Positions 1-14,979 of a stretch of 64,000 nt of DNA are shown piece after piece. The notes below the pieces were generated by a model, which saw only the letters and a program-made list of their open reading frames with translations, made no database searches and was not told the DNA's origin. The DNA comes from a virus, in IMG/VR virus record IMGVR_UViG_3300046660_000385, positions 1 through 64,000 of that record; one strand, given 5' to 3'. The position numbers and the translations under genes are program-made. Numbering within the stretch: the first letter of the stretch is position 1; the number at the start of each line of letters is the position of its first letter.

Positions 1-349
1 AGCTTTTCACCCGCACCACCAGGCCGCCCAGCTTGTGCTCGCGCGCCAGGTGCGCCAGCGTGAGAAACACCTTCCAGTCCTGGCCGCGGATCTCCTCGCC
101 GGTCATGGTGACGGCCGCGTCGTCGCCACCGAGCGTGAACAGCCGCTCGTTGTGGTAGTAGCGGCGCGGGGCGCCGCCCGTCTTGGTCGAGATCAGGGCA
201 CAGCGGGTCAGCTCGTTGGCGATCGCCCGCACCTCGTCGTGCCAGTACGGCAGCTGGACCGGGGCGAACCGTTTCAGTTCGGCCTCCATCGTCCGGGCCT
301 TGGTTTTCAGATCGAGCGCGCGCTGCTGCGGAGTGGAATCGTCCGGCAT
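1..349 (-). CDS. TrfA-family plasmid replication initiator (partial, C-terminus outside window)
   Basis: Only the first 116 codons are present; the gene runs off the left edge. After a helical N-terminus the protein has the TrfA-type block: LPYWHDEVRAIANELTR, then a basic RRYYHN segment, then TMTGEEI and a DWKVFLTLAHLARE helix, in the order seen in TrfA initiators of IncP-like broad-host-range plasmids. Such proteins bind iterons and recruit the host helicase to start plasmid replication. The ATG at 347-349 is the first plausible start; a 53-bp gap separates it from the upstream H-NS gene. Together with parAB this argues for an extrachromosomal prophage. The family call is from pattern only; the rest of the gene and any iterons lie outside the window. 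Confidence 0.75.
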   Translation of the reverse strand, partial: MPDDSTPQQRALDLKTKARTMEAELKRFAPVQLPYWHDEVRAIANELTRCALISTKTGGAPRRYYHNERLFTLGGDDAAVTMTGEEIRGQDWKVFLTLAHLAREHKLGGLVVRVKS

Positions 350-402: not shown

Positions 403-873
403 TCAGCTGGTCTGGCGCGGATCTGGCCAGGCCGCCACCGGCCGCGCCGGGCCGGCGGACGCCATCTGGTGCACCGCGTGGCTGGCGTCCACGGCGGGCG
501 ATGCCGTCGGCGCGTAGCTGGCGGGCGCCGGCTTCTCGATCAGGAAGTCGTCCCAGTCGCGGCCGGCGATCCAGTTCGGGGTGCGGCCAGTGCCGGTCCA
601 GGTGGCGCCGCTCTCGGGGTCCCTGTACTTCGGTGCGCCCTTCGGCGTGCGGTCGCGCTTCTTCTCGGGTTTCCTCTCGCGCTTCGGCAGGCTTGGGGGC
701 GGCGGATAGCCGAGTTCCTCGGCGGTCAGGTCATAGGCGGCGATCAGGGCCTTGATGTCGGTGACGGCGGCGGCGCGGCCCTCCATCATCAGCAACGTGG
801 CTTTCTCCTGCAGCGCGCGGATCTGGCTCTGCAGCTCCTGGTAGGCCTGGTAGTTACGGTGCAGGTCGCTCAT
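403..873 (-). CDS. H-NS family nucleoid protein (first of tandem pair)
   Basis: 156 aa. The N-terminal half is a helical oligomerisation-type region. Residues about 80-112 carry the H-NS DNA-binding motif (APKYRDPESGATWTGTGRTP followed by NWIAGRDW), the betaproteobacterial version of the AT-hook-like H-NS C-terminus. A 40-residue Ala/Pro-rich tail follows, which is unusual for the family. The start overlaps the stop of the upstream paralogue by 4 bases (ATGA at 870-873), so translation is probably coupled. Such plasmid- or phage-borne H-NS proteins usually silence foreign AT-rich DNA or hide the element from host regulation; that role here is inference. Confidence 0.88.
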   Translation of the reverse strand: MSDLHRNYQAYQELQSQIRALQEKATLLMMEGRAAAVTDIKALIAAYDLTAEELGYPPPPSLPKRERKPEKKRDRTPKGAPKYRDPESGATWTGTGRTPNWIAGRDWDDFLIEKPAPASYAPTASPAVDASHAVHQMASAGPARPVAAWPDPRQTS

Positions 874-4630: not shown

Positions 4631-5548
4631 TTACCGTGTTTTCAAGAGCTTAGGCAGGTTCTCCTCGACCAGCCGGTGCAGTGCGTCGTAGTCGATATTG
4701 CCGGACACGCGCGCGCCCTCGGCCGTGTACACCAGGCGCACGCCGCCGCCCAGTTCGATGTCCTTTTTCGGCTTGTCGGCGCGCGGGTTGGCCCGCTCCT
4801 CGATCCACGCCGGTACGCTGGCCTGGGTCAGCTTGCCCTTGGCGAGCAGGTCGAGCGCGTCGAGTACCAGCAGCTCGTGCTGCGGACAGTAGGCCTTGAA
4901 CTTCTTGGCCAGGTTGTAGCCGACGATCGTGGGGTGGTCGTCGAGCAGCTGCTGGGCGGCCAGCGGCAGCACGGCGAAGCCGTCCAGCGCCGGGATCACG
5001 GTGCGGTCAACGTTCAGCAGGCGCCCCAGCTCGGTCGCGCTGGTGGCGGCGCCGATCCGGCGCAGCATCTGCGCGTGCTTGTACAGTTCCCAGTCGCCCA
5101 GGTTCCTGCGGTGGGTATTCTCGGTCGTCAGTGCCCTGGCCGCCTCGGCGTCGGACATGGGGCGCACGAACGCGGGGATCTCGTGCCGGCCCAGGTGGGC
5201 GTACGCCTGCAGCCGATGGTGGCCGGCGATCAGCTCGTAGCGGGGTTGGGGGGGTGTGATACTATCACACCCCTCCTGCGGCAAGGCCGCCAGCGGGCGC
5301 ACGATGATCGGGTCGTGCAGGCCCTCGATACGGATGCTCTCGGCCAGCGCTTCTATATAGGCCTGGTCGGCCCGGCCGCGGCTCTGGTAGGCCGACACCG
5401 CGATGTAGTGCAGCTTGAGCATCTGCGGCGGCGCAGTGTCCTGGCCCATCCTGCCGATGATGGTGGTGGCGACGTCGGCCTGCATCTGTTCGCGTGGCCG
5501 GCGCTCGGCCGCGCCCGCCATCAGTTCGCGTTCCTGCTTACTCGGCAT
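4631..5548 (-). CDS. parB: ParB-family partition protein
   Basis: 305 aa. The N-terminal ParB/sulfiredoxin-like CTPase domain is clear: the strand around IIVRPL at 81-86, ELIAGHHR at 105-112 (box II, GHHR replacing GERR) and TENTHRRNL at 142-150 (box III). A helix-turn-helix follows at about 165-190 (SATELGRLLNVDRTVIPAL), then a C-terminal dimerisation region. Residues 93-100 sit in the usual variable loop and are encoded by a perfect 23-bp palindrome that recurs at 7254 (see that entry). The start overlaps the end of parA by 11 bases, as in most parAB operons. It probably binds a parS site and recruits ParA for plasmid segregation. Confidence 0.9.
   Translation of the reverse strand: MPSKQERELMAGAAERRPREQMQADVATTIIGRMGQDTAPPQMLKLHYIAVSAYQSRGRADQAYIEALAESIRIEGLHDPIIVRPLAALPQEGCDSITPPQPRYELIAGHHRLQAYAHLGRHEIPAFVRPMSDAEAARALTTENTHRRNLGDWELYKHAQMLRRIGAATSATELGRLLNVDRTVIPALDGFAVLPLAAQQLLDDHPTIVGYNLAKKFKAYCPQHELLVLDALDLLAKGKLTQASVPAWIEERANPRADKPKKDIELGGGVRLVYTAEGARVSGNIDYDALHRLVEENLPKLLKTR
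5251..5273. repeat. 23-bp perfect palindrome inside parB, candidate parS/operator (copy 1)
   Basis: Arms GGGGTGTGATA and TATCACACCCC around a central C. An identical 23-bp copy lies at 7254-7276. Two perfect copies within 2 kb, both near parAB, are far beyond chance. The natural reading is a ParB (or other HTH protein) binding site. Here it is placed in-frame in the variable loop of the ParB CTPase domain. Confidence 0.75.
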
Positions 5549-6350
5549 GGGCCAGCTCCTCCTCCACGTTCTTGCGGGCCAGCCCCAGCTTGTCCATCAG
5601 CTCGCGCATCAGGCGCACCGTCACGCGCGAGACCGTATGGTCCTTGTCGTACTGCATGATGGTCTTGCCGACCAGCTGGGCCTTCTTGACGTCGGTCGAT
5701 TCCGGCAGCGCGGTCTCGAACACGCTCTCGAACGAGGCCTTCACCTCGTTGGCGACGATCCGGCATACCTGCTTGCGGCCGTCGTGCTTGGTGAGCACGG
5801 CGCCGCCAAAGGTCAGTTTCGGGTTGGCGGTCTTGGCCTGGTGGATGAAGTCGAGCACGTCGTCAGCGCCGATCAGCGACAGCTTGGAGCCGGATTCGAC
5901 CGGCACGATCACCATGTCGGCGGCCGCCAGCGCGTTCGCGCTGAGCAGGCCCAGCGACGGCGGGCAGTCGATCAGGATCACGTCGTAGCCGTCGGCAATC
6001 CGCGACAGCTTCTCGGCCAGCAGGCGCGTGGCGATGAACGGGTTGGCGGCCAGCACCTCGCGTTCCAGGTTCGCCAGTTTCAGGGTCGCGCCGAGCAGGT
6101 GCACGCCGGGGATGCGGGTCTCGGTGATGATCGCCTCGGAGATCGTCGACTGGCCGGCCAGCACGCGCTCGATCGGCCGGGACGGCAGCTCCGCGAAGCT
6201 GTAGATCAGCGCGGTCGCGTGGGCCTGGGGATCGAAGTCGACGACCAGCACACTCAGGCCTTCGCGCGCCAGGGCGTCCGCGCCCGAGGTGCAGAGGAAG
6301 GTTTTGTTGACGCCGCCCTTGTGGTTGACGACCGCTACAATTTTCGCCAT
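5538..6350 (-). CDS. parA: ParA-family partition ATPase
   Basis: 270 aa. Deviant Walker A HKGGVNKT at 10-17 (signature Lys 11 and Lys 16; the usual Gly before the second Lys is Asn, as some plasmid ParAs tolerate), Walker A' VVDFDPQA near 36-43 and Walker B VILIDCPPSLG near 124-134. No N-terminal HTH, so it is the short (type Ib/chromosomal-like) form. It starts at 6348-6350 behind its own promoter region and after the terminator at 6423-6455, and is coupled to parB by an 11-base overlap. It drives segregation of the plasmid prophage. Confidence 0.93.
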   Translation of the reverse strand: MAKIVAVVNHKGGVNKTFLCTSGADALAREGLSVLVVDFDPQAHATALIYSFAELPSRPIERVLAGQSTISEAIITETRIPGVHLLGATLKLANLEREVLAANPFIATRLLAEKLSRIADGYDVILIDCPPSLGLLSANALAAADMVIVPVESGSKLSLIGADDVLDFIHQAKTANPKLTFGGAVLTKHDGRKQVCRIVANEVKASFESVFETALPESTDVKKAQLVGKTIMQYDKDHTVSRVTVRLMRELMDKLGLARKNVEEELAHAE

Positions 6351-13040: not shown

Positions 13041-13077
13041 ATTAAAGTCTGACTTTAATTTACAAGGGAAACTTTGA
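13041..13077 (-). promoter_or_regulatory. leftward (pL-like) promoter/operator
   Basis: Positions 13051-13077, read on the minus strand, match 23 of 27 bases of the right-hand element at 13959-13985. TTGTAA (13060-13065) can serve as -35; the -10 is weak (AATAGA near 13038-13043). A perfect 19-bp palindrome, ATTAAAGTC-T-GACTTTAAT (13041-13059), overlaps the promoter. Further AAACTTT half-sites follow to about 13100. Expected to control the whole leftward operon. Confidence 0.7.
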
Positions 13078-13247: not shown

Positions 13248-13877
13248 CTAGAGCGCTCCCTGTTGCGCCACGACTCTGCCGATGGTCTTGACGGCGGTGG
13301 CCGGCACCAGCTGCTCGGGCATGTTGGCGCGGTCGGCGCAGACCCGCACCATGCCGTCGAGCTGGATGAACAGACGGCGCACCTTGAGGCCGGCCGGGGT
13401 GTCGAGCAGGAACACCTTGTCGTCCTTCAGCTCGGTCTGCTTCAGGTCGATGAGCAGCTGGCTGCCCATGTTCATGCTGTCGTCCTCGTTGATGAATACG
13501 CGGCAGTGTTCGGGCGCGACCCCGAGCGTATGCAGGAAATCCCTGCGATAGGCAAAGCTGTTGTGGTCGTCGGCCAGACCGCCAACTTCGTGGTGATGTT
13601 GCACTGCTATGCCCCCTTCCTTATCGGTCCCTAGCAACCTTACCAAGGTATATTTTTCCGCTAATGGAACATTAACATCAATTCCCGCTGACAAGTATTC
13701 CGTTGTTGTTTTTAATACTTCTGCAATTGTTTTCAACCGATGATACGACGGCATCGCTTTAAGTTCCTCCCACCCATAGACGGCCTGCTGCGTCACTCCA
13801 CACAGATCTCCTAGTTGCACACGACTCAGTTCTAGTTCCTCACGGCGACGCTTTATGCGGTCATGGATCGTTGGCAT
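13248..13877 (-). CDS. CI-like repressor (XRE HTH plus S24 peptidase domain)
   Basis: 209 aa. HTH at about 18-40 (SRVQLGDLCGVTQQAVYGWE). The C-terminal S24/LexA-type domain has Ser 134 in EDDSM and Lys 165 in AGLKVRRLF, the likely Ser-Lys dyad for RecA-stimulated self-cleavage. Flanked by the two inverted operator copies, it is the lysogeny repressor. The first 90 or so codons (13610-13877) are clearly AT-richer than the rest and use different codons, so the DNA-binding half looks exchanged by recombination. ATG at 13875-13877. Confidence 0.9.
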   Translation of the reverse strand: MPTIHDRIKRRREELELSRVQLGDLCGVTQQAVYGWEELKAMPSYHRLKTIAEVLKTTTEYLSAGIDVNVPLAEKYTLVRLLGTDKEGGIAVQHHHEVGGLADDHNSFAYRRDFLHTLGVAPEHCRVFINEDDSMNMGSQLLIDLKQTELKDDKVFLLDTPAGLKVRRLFIQLDGMVRVCADRANMPEQLVPATAVKTIGRVVAQQGAL

Positions 13878-13958
13878 GGTGTTTCCCTTCGTTCTAGTAG
13901 TGGTGACTTCCTAACGCGCAACATAACACAGGCGGTTCTATAAGCGGCGCTTGATTCC

Positions 13959-13998
13959 TTAAAGTTTCACTTGTAATTTAAAGTGTTGCTTGTAGAAT
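13959..13998 (+). promoter_or_regulatory. rightward (pR-like) promoter/operator
   Basis: TTGTAA at 13971-13976, 16-bp spacer, TAGAAT at 13993-13998. The 27-bp element 13959-13985 is the inverted partner of 13051-13077 (23/27 identical). The expected transcript start, about 7 bases after the -10, coincides with the ATG at 14006, so the first rightward gene may be translated from a leaderless mRNA. Regulated by the divergent CI-like repressor. Confidence 0.75.
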
Positions 13999-14005
13999 CT
14001 ATCCC

Positions 14006-14578
14006 ATGAAAAAACTTTCCGCACGGATGCGCGCCGCCCGCCGGCACCGCGAACAGGAGTTTCTGGGTGTCGCCGCCAACAAGGTCGGCTCGTACAGCGC
14101 GCTGGCCCGCGAACTGGGCGTGTCGGCCCAGGCCGTGCATCAGTGGTCCCGGAAAGGCACCCCGCTCCGCCGCTGCAGCGGGATCGAGCGCGCCAGCGAG
14201 GGCGTGGTCCAGTGCGAACAGCTCAACGAGGACTACAACCTGATCGAGGTCCGGCCCTACCGCCACACCCCGCCGACCAACGCGATCTATATCTCCGGTC
14301 CGATGACCGGCAAGGTCGACCTGAACCGTCCCGCCTTCAACGCCGAAGCGGCGCGCCTGCGCAACCTGGGCTACCGCGTCGTCAACCCGGCCGAGTTCGA
14401 GCTGGCGCCGGACACCACCTGGGCCGGCTACATGCGCCACGACATCATCGCCATGCTGACCCACTGCGACACGCTGGTTGTCCTGCCGGGCTGGAACCGC
14501 TCGAAGGGCGCCCAGCTCGAGGTGTACCTGGCGCGCCAGCTGGAACTGCGCGTCGTGAAAGCCGGTGCGCTCAAATGA
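14006..14578 (+). CDS. Cro-like (YdaS-type) HTH fused to a DUF4406 deoxyribosyltransferase-like domain
   Basis: 190 aa. Residues about 25-75 are a YdaS/Cro HTH: GSYSALARELGVSAQAVHQW, IERASEGVV. Residues about 90-190 are DUF4406: AIYISGPMTGKVDLNR, VVNPAEFEL, and CDTLVVLPGWNRSKGAQLE, which resembles nucleoside 2-deoxyribosyltransferases. As the first gene after pR, the HTH should act as Cro. The fused enzyme-like half could sense or modify a nucleoside; that is speculation. The frame is continuous with no sign of frameshift, and there is no Shine-Dalgarno before the ATG. Confidence 0.82.
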   Translation: MKKLSARMRAARRHREQEFLGVAANKVGSYSALARELGVSAQAVHQWSRKGTPLRRCSGIERASEGVVQCEQLNEDYNLIEVRPYRHTPPTNAIYISGPMTGKVDLNRPAFNAEAARLRNLGYRVVNPAEFELAPDTTWAGYMRHDIIAMLTHCDTLVVLPGWNRSKGAQLEVYLARQLELRVVKAGALK

Positions 14579-14979
14579 AGCGCACCTCGATTCTCAAGCG
14601 CACCGGGTTCGTCACCCGGGCGCGTGAAAAACAGCCCAAGTCGCGCGCCAGGACCGGCCTGAAAAGCCGCCAGCGCGCCGTCAGCGCGGTCGAGGCCGCG
14701 TACTGGGACCGCCTGGCCCGCGAGATCGGCTGCATCGCCTGCCGCGTGGCCGGCCTGGCGACGTCCGACTACGTGTCGATCCACCACATCGACGGCAGGA
14801 CCAAGCCGGGCTGCCACATGAACGTCCTGCCCCTTTGCGCCGGCCACCATCAACAGGGCACCGGCAACGACCAGAGCCTGGTGGCCGTGCATCCGAACAA
14901 GGCCAGGTTCGAGGCCCTGTACGGCACGCAGGAGGAGCTGCGCGCGCTGTGCAACGAGAAGCTGGGGGTCAACCCATGA
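14575..14979 (+). CDS. Ref-family (P1 Ref-like) nuclease
   Basis: 134 aa. A Lys/Arg-rich N-terminus is followed by an HNH-like zinc core: CIAC at 53-56, HHIDGRTKPGCH at 70-81, LCAGHH at 87-92, and the family tail HPNKARFEALYGTQEEL. Ref of phage P1 is a RecA-dependent nuclease that cuts at D-loops and boosts recombination. The start overlaps the upstream stop (ATGA). Confidence 0.85.
   Translation: MKRTSILKRTGFVTRAREKQPKSRARTGLKSRQRAVSAVEAAYWDRLAREIGCIACRVAGLATSDYVSIHHIDGRTKPGCHMNVLPLCAGHHQQGTGNDQSLVAVHPNKARFEALYGTQEELRALCNEKLGVNP

Follow-up and report, generated by a model that had tools for sequence, protein, structure and literature searches.

A single open frame in the immunity region of an apparent phage-plasmid joins a Cro-type DNA-binding domain to a DUF4406 domain, which is predicted to take the fold of deoxyribosyltransferases (the NDT superfamily). 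In the textbook picture, Cro proteins are regulators reduced to the minimum: a DNA-binding domain and no sensor. We give about an even chance to the reading that the protein described here is a bifunctional Cro: the lytic repressor of a phage-plasmid that gained an NDT-superfamily domain, which would bind a ligand and, in the members with an intact triad, probably be catalytic. The gene lies in a 64,000-nucleotide stretch of viral DNA, here called the window (positions 1 to 64,000 of IMG/VR record IMGVR_UViG_3300046660_000385), and the features of the locus are collected in the table.

Features of the fusion locus and of the initiator and partition genes (window coordinates unless stated otherwise)
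Feature	Position	Strand	Basis or remark
TrfA-like initiator	26..334; 97955..98986 of the full record (G000)	-	
ParA/ParB	4631..6350	-	
Left operator-like box AAGTCTGACTT	13045..13055		Candidate by motif; beyond cI
CI-like repressor	13248..13877	-	HTH_3 and weak peptidase S24 (E = 0.0055)
Operator box, OR3-like, AAGCGGCGCTT	13942..13952		Candidate by motif AAGYNNNRCTT
Operator box, OR2-like, AAGTTTCACTT	13962..13972		Candidate by motif AAGYNNNRCTT
Presumed pR of cro	13971..13998	+	TTGTAA 13971-13976, spacer 16, TAGAAT 13993-13998; -10 ends 7 nt before ATG
Operator box, OR1-like, AAGTGTTGCTT	13981..13991		Candidate by motif AAGYNNNRCTT; within pR spacer
cro-DUF4406 fusion gene	14006..14578	+	190 codons, stop-free; Pfam and fused homologues
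Cro/YdaS HTH, residues 23-76	14072..14233	+	Pfam; sequence and fold matches to Xfaso 1 Cro (3bd1)
Linker, residues 77-92	14234..14281	+	Model confidence lowest here; mean pLDDT 59 over block 81-90
DUF4406 domain, residues 93-184, predicted NDT/DNPH1/MilB fold	14282..14557	+	Pfam; Tyr95, Asp146, Glu172
Ref-like RecA-dependent nuclease gene	14575..14979	+	ATGA overlap with the stop of the fusion

A sequence-only reading of the window had proposed one continuous frame with a YdaS/Cro helix-turn-helix (HTH) at residues 25–75 and DUF4406 at residues 90–190. This was borne out: Pfam matched both domains within the 190-codon ORF, at limits within a few residues of those proposed. The HTH matched YdaS_toxin (PF15943; residues 23–76, E = 2.6e-16, 59.6 bits vs. 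a cut-off of 30) and P22_Cro (PF14549; residues 27–70, E = 1.3e-7, 31.7 bits vs. 30.2), and the C-terminal half matched DUF4406 (PF14359; residues 93–184, E = 1.1e-28, 99.9 bits vs. 22). NCBIfam returned a carph-isopro match only, below its cut-off. The “YdaS toxin” label is disputed; Jobling argues that YdaS is the Cro of the Rac prophage (PMC5917428). By sequence, the solved structure closest to the HTH was that of the Xfaso 1 prophage Cro (3bd1; E = 2.1e-14), which the HTH model also matched in a fold search (Z 10.7, rmsd 1.9 over 64 residues, 39% identity). The AlphaFold2 model of the fusion had a mean pLDDT of 91.2, lowest at residues 81–90, and a pTM of 0.64, so the mutual arrangement of the two halves is not fixed by the model. 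Separate translation of the DUF4406 half was considered and rejected: the in-frame start codon nearest to the domain is a GTG, at Val67, which lies 26 codons before it, and this position is alanine in the second copy of the gene in the same record (L002).

The fusion is the first rightward gene, divergent from the CI-type repressor. The presumed pR was the sole sigma-70-like match between 12900 and 15000 (shuffled sequences gave a mean of 0.5), and its −10 hexamer lies exactly where the sequence-only reading had placed it. The absence of a Shine-Dalgarno (SD) sequence, also claimed there, was confirmed, with none of eight SD-like motifs found in the 20 nt before the cro ATG. We compared 12 upstream regions of fused and unfused cro genes (L003 and L005 were omitted as repeats of the window and L006; L008–L010 are near copies). 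In all 12, TA[AG]AAT ends 6–7 nt before the ATG, and in none does an SD-like motif lie between; AGGA occurs in L008 and L009, upstream of the −10 only. Because the −10 ends so close to the ATG and no SD intervenes, a leaderless cro mRNA is likely. The leaderless transcript proposed earlier thereby gained a conserved promoter-to-ATG distance, and transcription starting at the ATG itself remains a likely reading of that spacing. The window’s cI is preceded by AAGGGA, so of the two genes cro alone looks leaderless. A leaderless cro mRNA, as predicted here, is not new: the cro mRNA of the telomere phage PY54 begins with AUG, as mapped by RACE, and the available portion of that article mentions no enzyme domain for PY54 (PMC4488713).

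Candidate operator boxes (AAGYNNNRCTT) lie before and within this promoter, the three right-hand copies in the window following each other at steps of 20 and 19 nt. At a distance of no more than 75 nt from the cro ATG, the box occurs three times in eight of the 12 regions and twice in four, with steps of 19–21 nt in 10 of them (L007 and L011 are the exceptions). At least one further copy lies 897–1088 nt upstream of cro in all 12, which in the window is beyond cI. The whole window contains six copies vs. 1.54 expected (1 of 100 shuffles reached six), four of them at this locus. The same layout precedes fused and unfused cro genes and resembles the OR/OL plan of lambda; judged by its motifs and gene order, this is an immunity region of the lambda type, with a divergent CI and repeated operator-like boxes. 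A terminator-like minus-strand match over cro codons 5–10 did not reach the shuffle mean and was discarded. We also observed that the first 24 nt of cro (14006–14029) are identical in all nine viral contigs from the first protein scan, which were partly selected by the peptide MKKLSARM. Across 10 representatives, codons for the same residue agree in 88.5% of pair cells at codons 2–8 and in 70% later; L002, L029, L030, and L031 differ from the shared 24-nt start. The conserved 5′ codons may reflect leaderless initiation.

In a fold search with the predicted model, residues 89–190 matched 1t1j (Z 12.8) and, at Z of about 9–11, deoxyribosyltransferases, DNPH1, MilB, and the TIR domains of SPARTA. 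The structure prediction thus agrees with the deoxyribosyltransferase likeness proposed from sequence: as modeled, the C-terminal half has a deoxyribosyltransferase/DNPH1/MilB fold, with Tyr95, Asp146, and Glu172 as predicted catalytic residues. The best solved-enzyme match of the DUF4406 profile was the NDT of T. brucei (2a0k, E = 0.0018), whose Tyr, Asn, and Glu the alignment pairs with these three residues, and BcmB, a CMP N-glycosidase, matched at E = 0.029; a single DUF4406 sequence searched with phmmer in the PDB returned just a chance ribosomal protein. The sharing of the fold with TIR domains and the weakness of the sequence matches to solved enzymes (best E = 0.0018) both count against a bifunctional Cro, as do the low pTM of the two-domain model and the loss of the catalytic Glu and GPMTG in one fusion, L031. 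The Asp146–Glu172 distance of 26 equals that between D62 and E88, the residues mutated in C. thermalis NDT according to PDB titles, which is a coincidence of numbers and not an alignment.

DUF4406 matched 666 of 50,697 phage records, and its phage proteins are annotated as nucleoside 2-deoxyribosyltransferase, hydrolase, or under other names. All 80 DUF4406 loci surveyed, which comprise 73 distinct domains including the window’s own and are the top 80 among at least 570 relatives, have the Glu of S.GA..E. Tyr95, Asp146, Glu172, and GPMTG are intact in four of the five distinct fusions (the window, L002, L004, and L030), and in each of the six pairs of these four, conservation is higher in the DUF4406 half than in the HTH. 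For L004, for example, identity is 95.9% in the DUF4406 half vs. 84.9% in the HTH, and dN/dS is 0.07 vs. 0.39.

Homologues with the same fusion, a check that the sequence-only reading had suggested, do exist: we found six fused cro genes across five records. A diverged second copy (L002, 77% identical) lies at 111891–112463 of the window’s own record, and the others are identical (L003) or 91% (L004), 66% (L030), and 53% (L031) identical to the window’s. In L003, the fusion and ref protein are exactly the same but a different gene follows them, and we therefore regard it as a separate, mosaic genome. Eight related records carry the same kind of cro unfused and without a DUF4406 match; two of these are fragments under 8 kb, and all are possibly incomplete. 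The Ref-like nuclease family is present in all 13 records, directly after cro at the loci read. In an HTH tree built from 12 rows and two outgroup rows, the fused genes group as a single clade among the unfused (87/87), which fits a single gain, and one change was found in 91% of 200 bootstrap trees. The ref tree agreed weakly, with a single fused group (55/81) among the 10 of 12 rows that were usable; L031 and L029 were left out, as their Ref ORFs were not recovered.

The homologue in L031 (1843–2424) is the one distinct fusion of the five in which the catalytic Glu is replaced by Gln and GPMTG is gone, so catalysis through the Glu172 position is dispensable in L031. Its DUF4406 is still recognizable (44.6 bits vs. 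the Pfam cut-off of 22). In all four pairs that include L031, conservation is lower in the DUF4406 half than in the HTH, and dN/dS is 0.51–0.80 in the former vs. 0.55–0.70 in the latter. Between L030 and L031, the C-terminal block (47 codons) has 17, 11, and 14 differences by codon position, with no excess at third positions. The L031 model keeps the fold, as predicted from an alignment full of intact homologues. With the catalytic residue lost from a frame that has stayed fused and open, the L031 domain could be a sensor, have an oligomer role, or be decaying.

No match covered 80% of the fusion in any of the 666 phage or 360 plasmid records that gave a match. Two near-misses were rejected: in Gordonia phage Bock (among the matches with 74–75% cover), a separate DUF4406 gene has an in-frame extension, HTH-less by eye, before its annotated start, and a 176-aa Pseudomonas koreensis plasmid protein has, by eye, a different N-terminal part. 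The fusion was also absent from one genome per species of 84,980 species, in protein-pattern and exact 24-base scans that reach close relatives. The viral scans rely on short conserved patterns, and their counts are lower bounds; a scan of 40 loci gave no Cro–DUF4406 fusion at the 26 newly found loci whose frames were read, and a further scan, which gave six loci, added none. At 79 other DUF4406 loci, searched up to 2.5 kb on each side, no Cro-type HTH lay in the DUF4406 frame, and elsewhere at these loci there was one good match to a Cro-type HTH (L156, E = 1.8e-11) plus four that were weak. Where annotations were inspected, they give DUF4406 its own gene. Phage D6, in which many P1-like genes are annotated, carries a stand-alone DUF4406 gene close to a ref nuclease gene (L173, 3129–4591), the same pair of functions. 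The literature searched, which omits most subscription journals and preprints, rarely names DUF4406, and the titles and abstract openings listed for regulator fusions contained none of the Cro–DUF4406 kind.

The fusion resembles the Cro proteins of Xfaso 1, P22, and YdaS in HTH sequence and fold, in its divergence from CI, and in its operator-like boxes, but it adds about 15–20 N-terminal residues and an entire C-terminal enzyme-like domain. With other DUF4406 phage proteins it shares the full-length domain and the catalytic Glu, and it differs from those at the 79 other viral loci in having an in-frame Cro-type HTH. DmtZ, a phage dAMP hydrolase and dZMP transferase of the NDT superfamily, is described in PMC12884076 as having a Tyr/Asn/Glu triad, cleaving dAMP, being inactive without the Tyr or Glu, and being fused to DutZ in some phages. 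By residue type, its triad corresponds to that of the window’s fusion, with Asn in place of Asp, and its partner is a nucleotide enzyme, whereas the partner here is a DNA-binding regulator. In retron effectors of the Retron-Eco1 type, the NDT-like and HTH parts act together. These effectors carry an NDT-like part with an HTH/winged-helix DNA-binding part, according to PMC12548924. They are defense effectors beside a reverse transcriptase, whereas the window’s fusion sits in the Cro position, flanked by CI and the Ref nuclease, and a family scan of five proteins gave no reverse transcriptase. In PADLOC, the DUF4406 half had no match at E ≤ 1, and the HTH side gave a weak match to mad1 (E = 0.0012) and nothing else. 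Retron effectors were not among the 50 fold-search rows listed, which has no bearing either way. What is new here is a Cro with an added NDT-superfamily domain; the combination of NDT-like and HTH parts is known from retron effectors.

TrfA-type initiators occur in 10 of the 13 related records and are missing from the L031 record, of 39 kb, and from two fragments that are short. The window also encodes ParA/ParB; terminase and portal genes follow further to the right, and from its gene content the group looks like phage-plasmids. A second early region, 70–85% identical to and colinear with window positions 1–20002, lies at the contig end (G000 98641–117848); it is a tandem related element, a cointegrate, or a chimeric assembly. 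Outside the window, a 7229-codon open frame (G000 68360–90049, plus strand) with InPase, DUF6884, LPD1, LPD39, and Strawberry-notch-type helicase domains is a giant polyvalent protein. An H-NS-like protein is encoded near the window start (403–873, minus strand).

If the protein is a bifunctional Cro, its simplest origin would be that a C-terminal domain resembling nucleoside-monophosphate N-glycosidases (DNPH1, MilB) was gained once, in frame, between cro and the ref nuclease gene that follows. In favor of this reading are the Pfam and fold matches of both halves, the six fused genes, the boxes before fused and unfused cro, the conserved Glu and triad with the higher conservation of the DUF4406 half, and the dAMP cleavage by DmtZ. 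The product would be made early from pR, probably via a leaderless mRNA. We infer that it binds the AAGYNNNRCTT operators as a Cro does and that the C-terminal domain binds a nucleoside or nucleotide, which it probably cleaves where the triad is intact; a coupling of the two halves would be a guess. That coupling is central to a ligand-gated Cro, in which DUF4406 would be mainly a sensor whose nucleotide occupancy alters operator binding, letting the lysis-lysogeny choice read the nucleotide pool. The domain of L031, recognizable despite the loss of its catalytic Glu and GPMTG, speaks for gating, as does the retention by fused genes of the Cro HTH and the operator-box layout of unfused ones. 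However, the GPMTG lost from L031 is conserved across the family, the L031 domain is less conserved than the HTH, DUF4406 is widespread as a gene of its own, and the linker is modeled with low confidence. We consider gating unlikely, though credible.

Somewhat harder to believe is a module for oligomerization or stability, in which the ligand is irrelevant and DUF4406 helps Cro dimers pair on the boxes. NDT-superfamily proteins are oligomers, the box spacings of 20 and 19 nt in the window would suit such pairing, and L031 keeps the domain without the Glu, but the triad and GPMTG kept in four of five distinct fusions would go unexplained, and similar boxes also precede the unfused cro genes. 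The fusion could also be incidental, uniting two independent early functions, with the enzyme half acting alone on the nucleotide pool or against host defense. The usual occurrence of DUF4406 without an HTH, none in frame at the 79 other loci, and its annotation as a separate gene fit this idea; the persistence of the joined state down to 66% (L030) and 53% (L031) identity does not, and we think it improbable. An assembly or frameshift artifact, akin to the lone sequencing error contemplated in the sequence-only reading, has next to no probability: the two related early regions mean that the window’s contig could be chimeric, but the presence of the same frame in L003, L004, L030, and L031 refutes an artifact.

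This Cro, whose enzyme-like domain is conserved, offers a direct way to ask whether a phage lytic switch reads nucleotide metabolism. Natural controls are at hand in the unfused relatives, whose operators are of a like kind, the four distinct intact fusions, and the one without the catalytic residue. The fusion would also offer a functional handle on DUF4406, seldom named in the literature searched. In its boldest form, which we hold to be doubtful, this Cro would be a nucleotide-responsive transcription factor of a temperate phage-plasmid, its NDT-fold domain binding a (deoxy)nucleoside monophosphate from infection or host damage and tuning operator binding, with the L031 lineage as a noncatalytic sensor.
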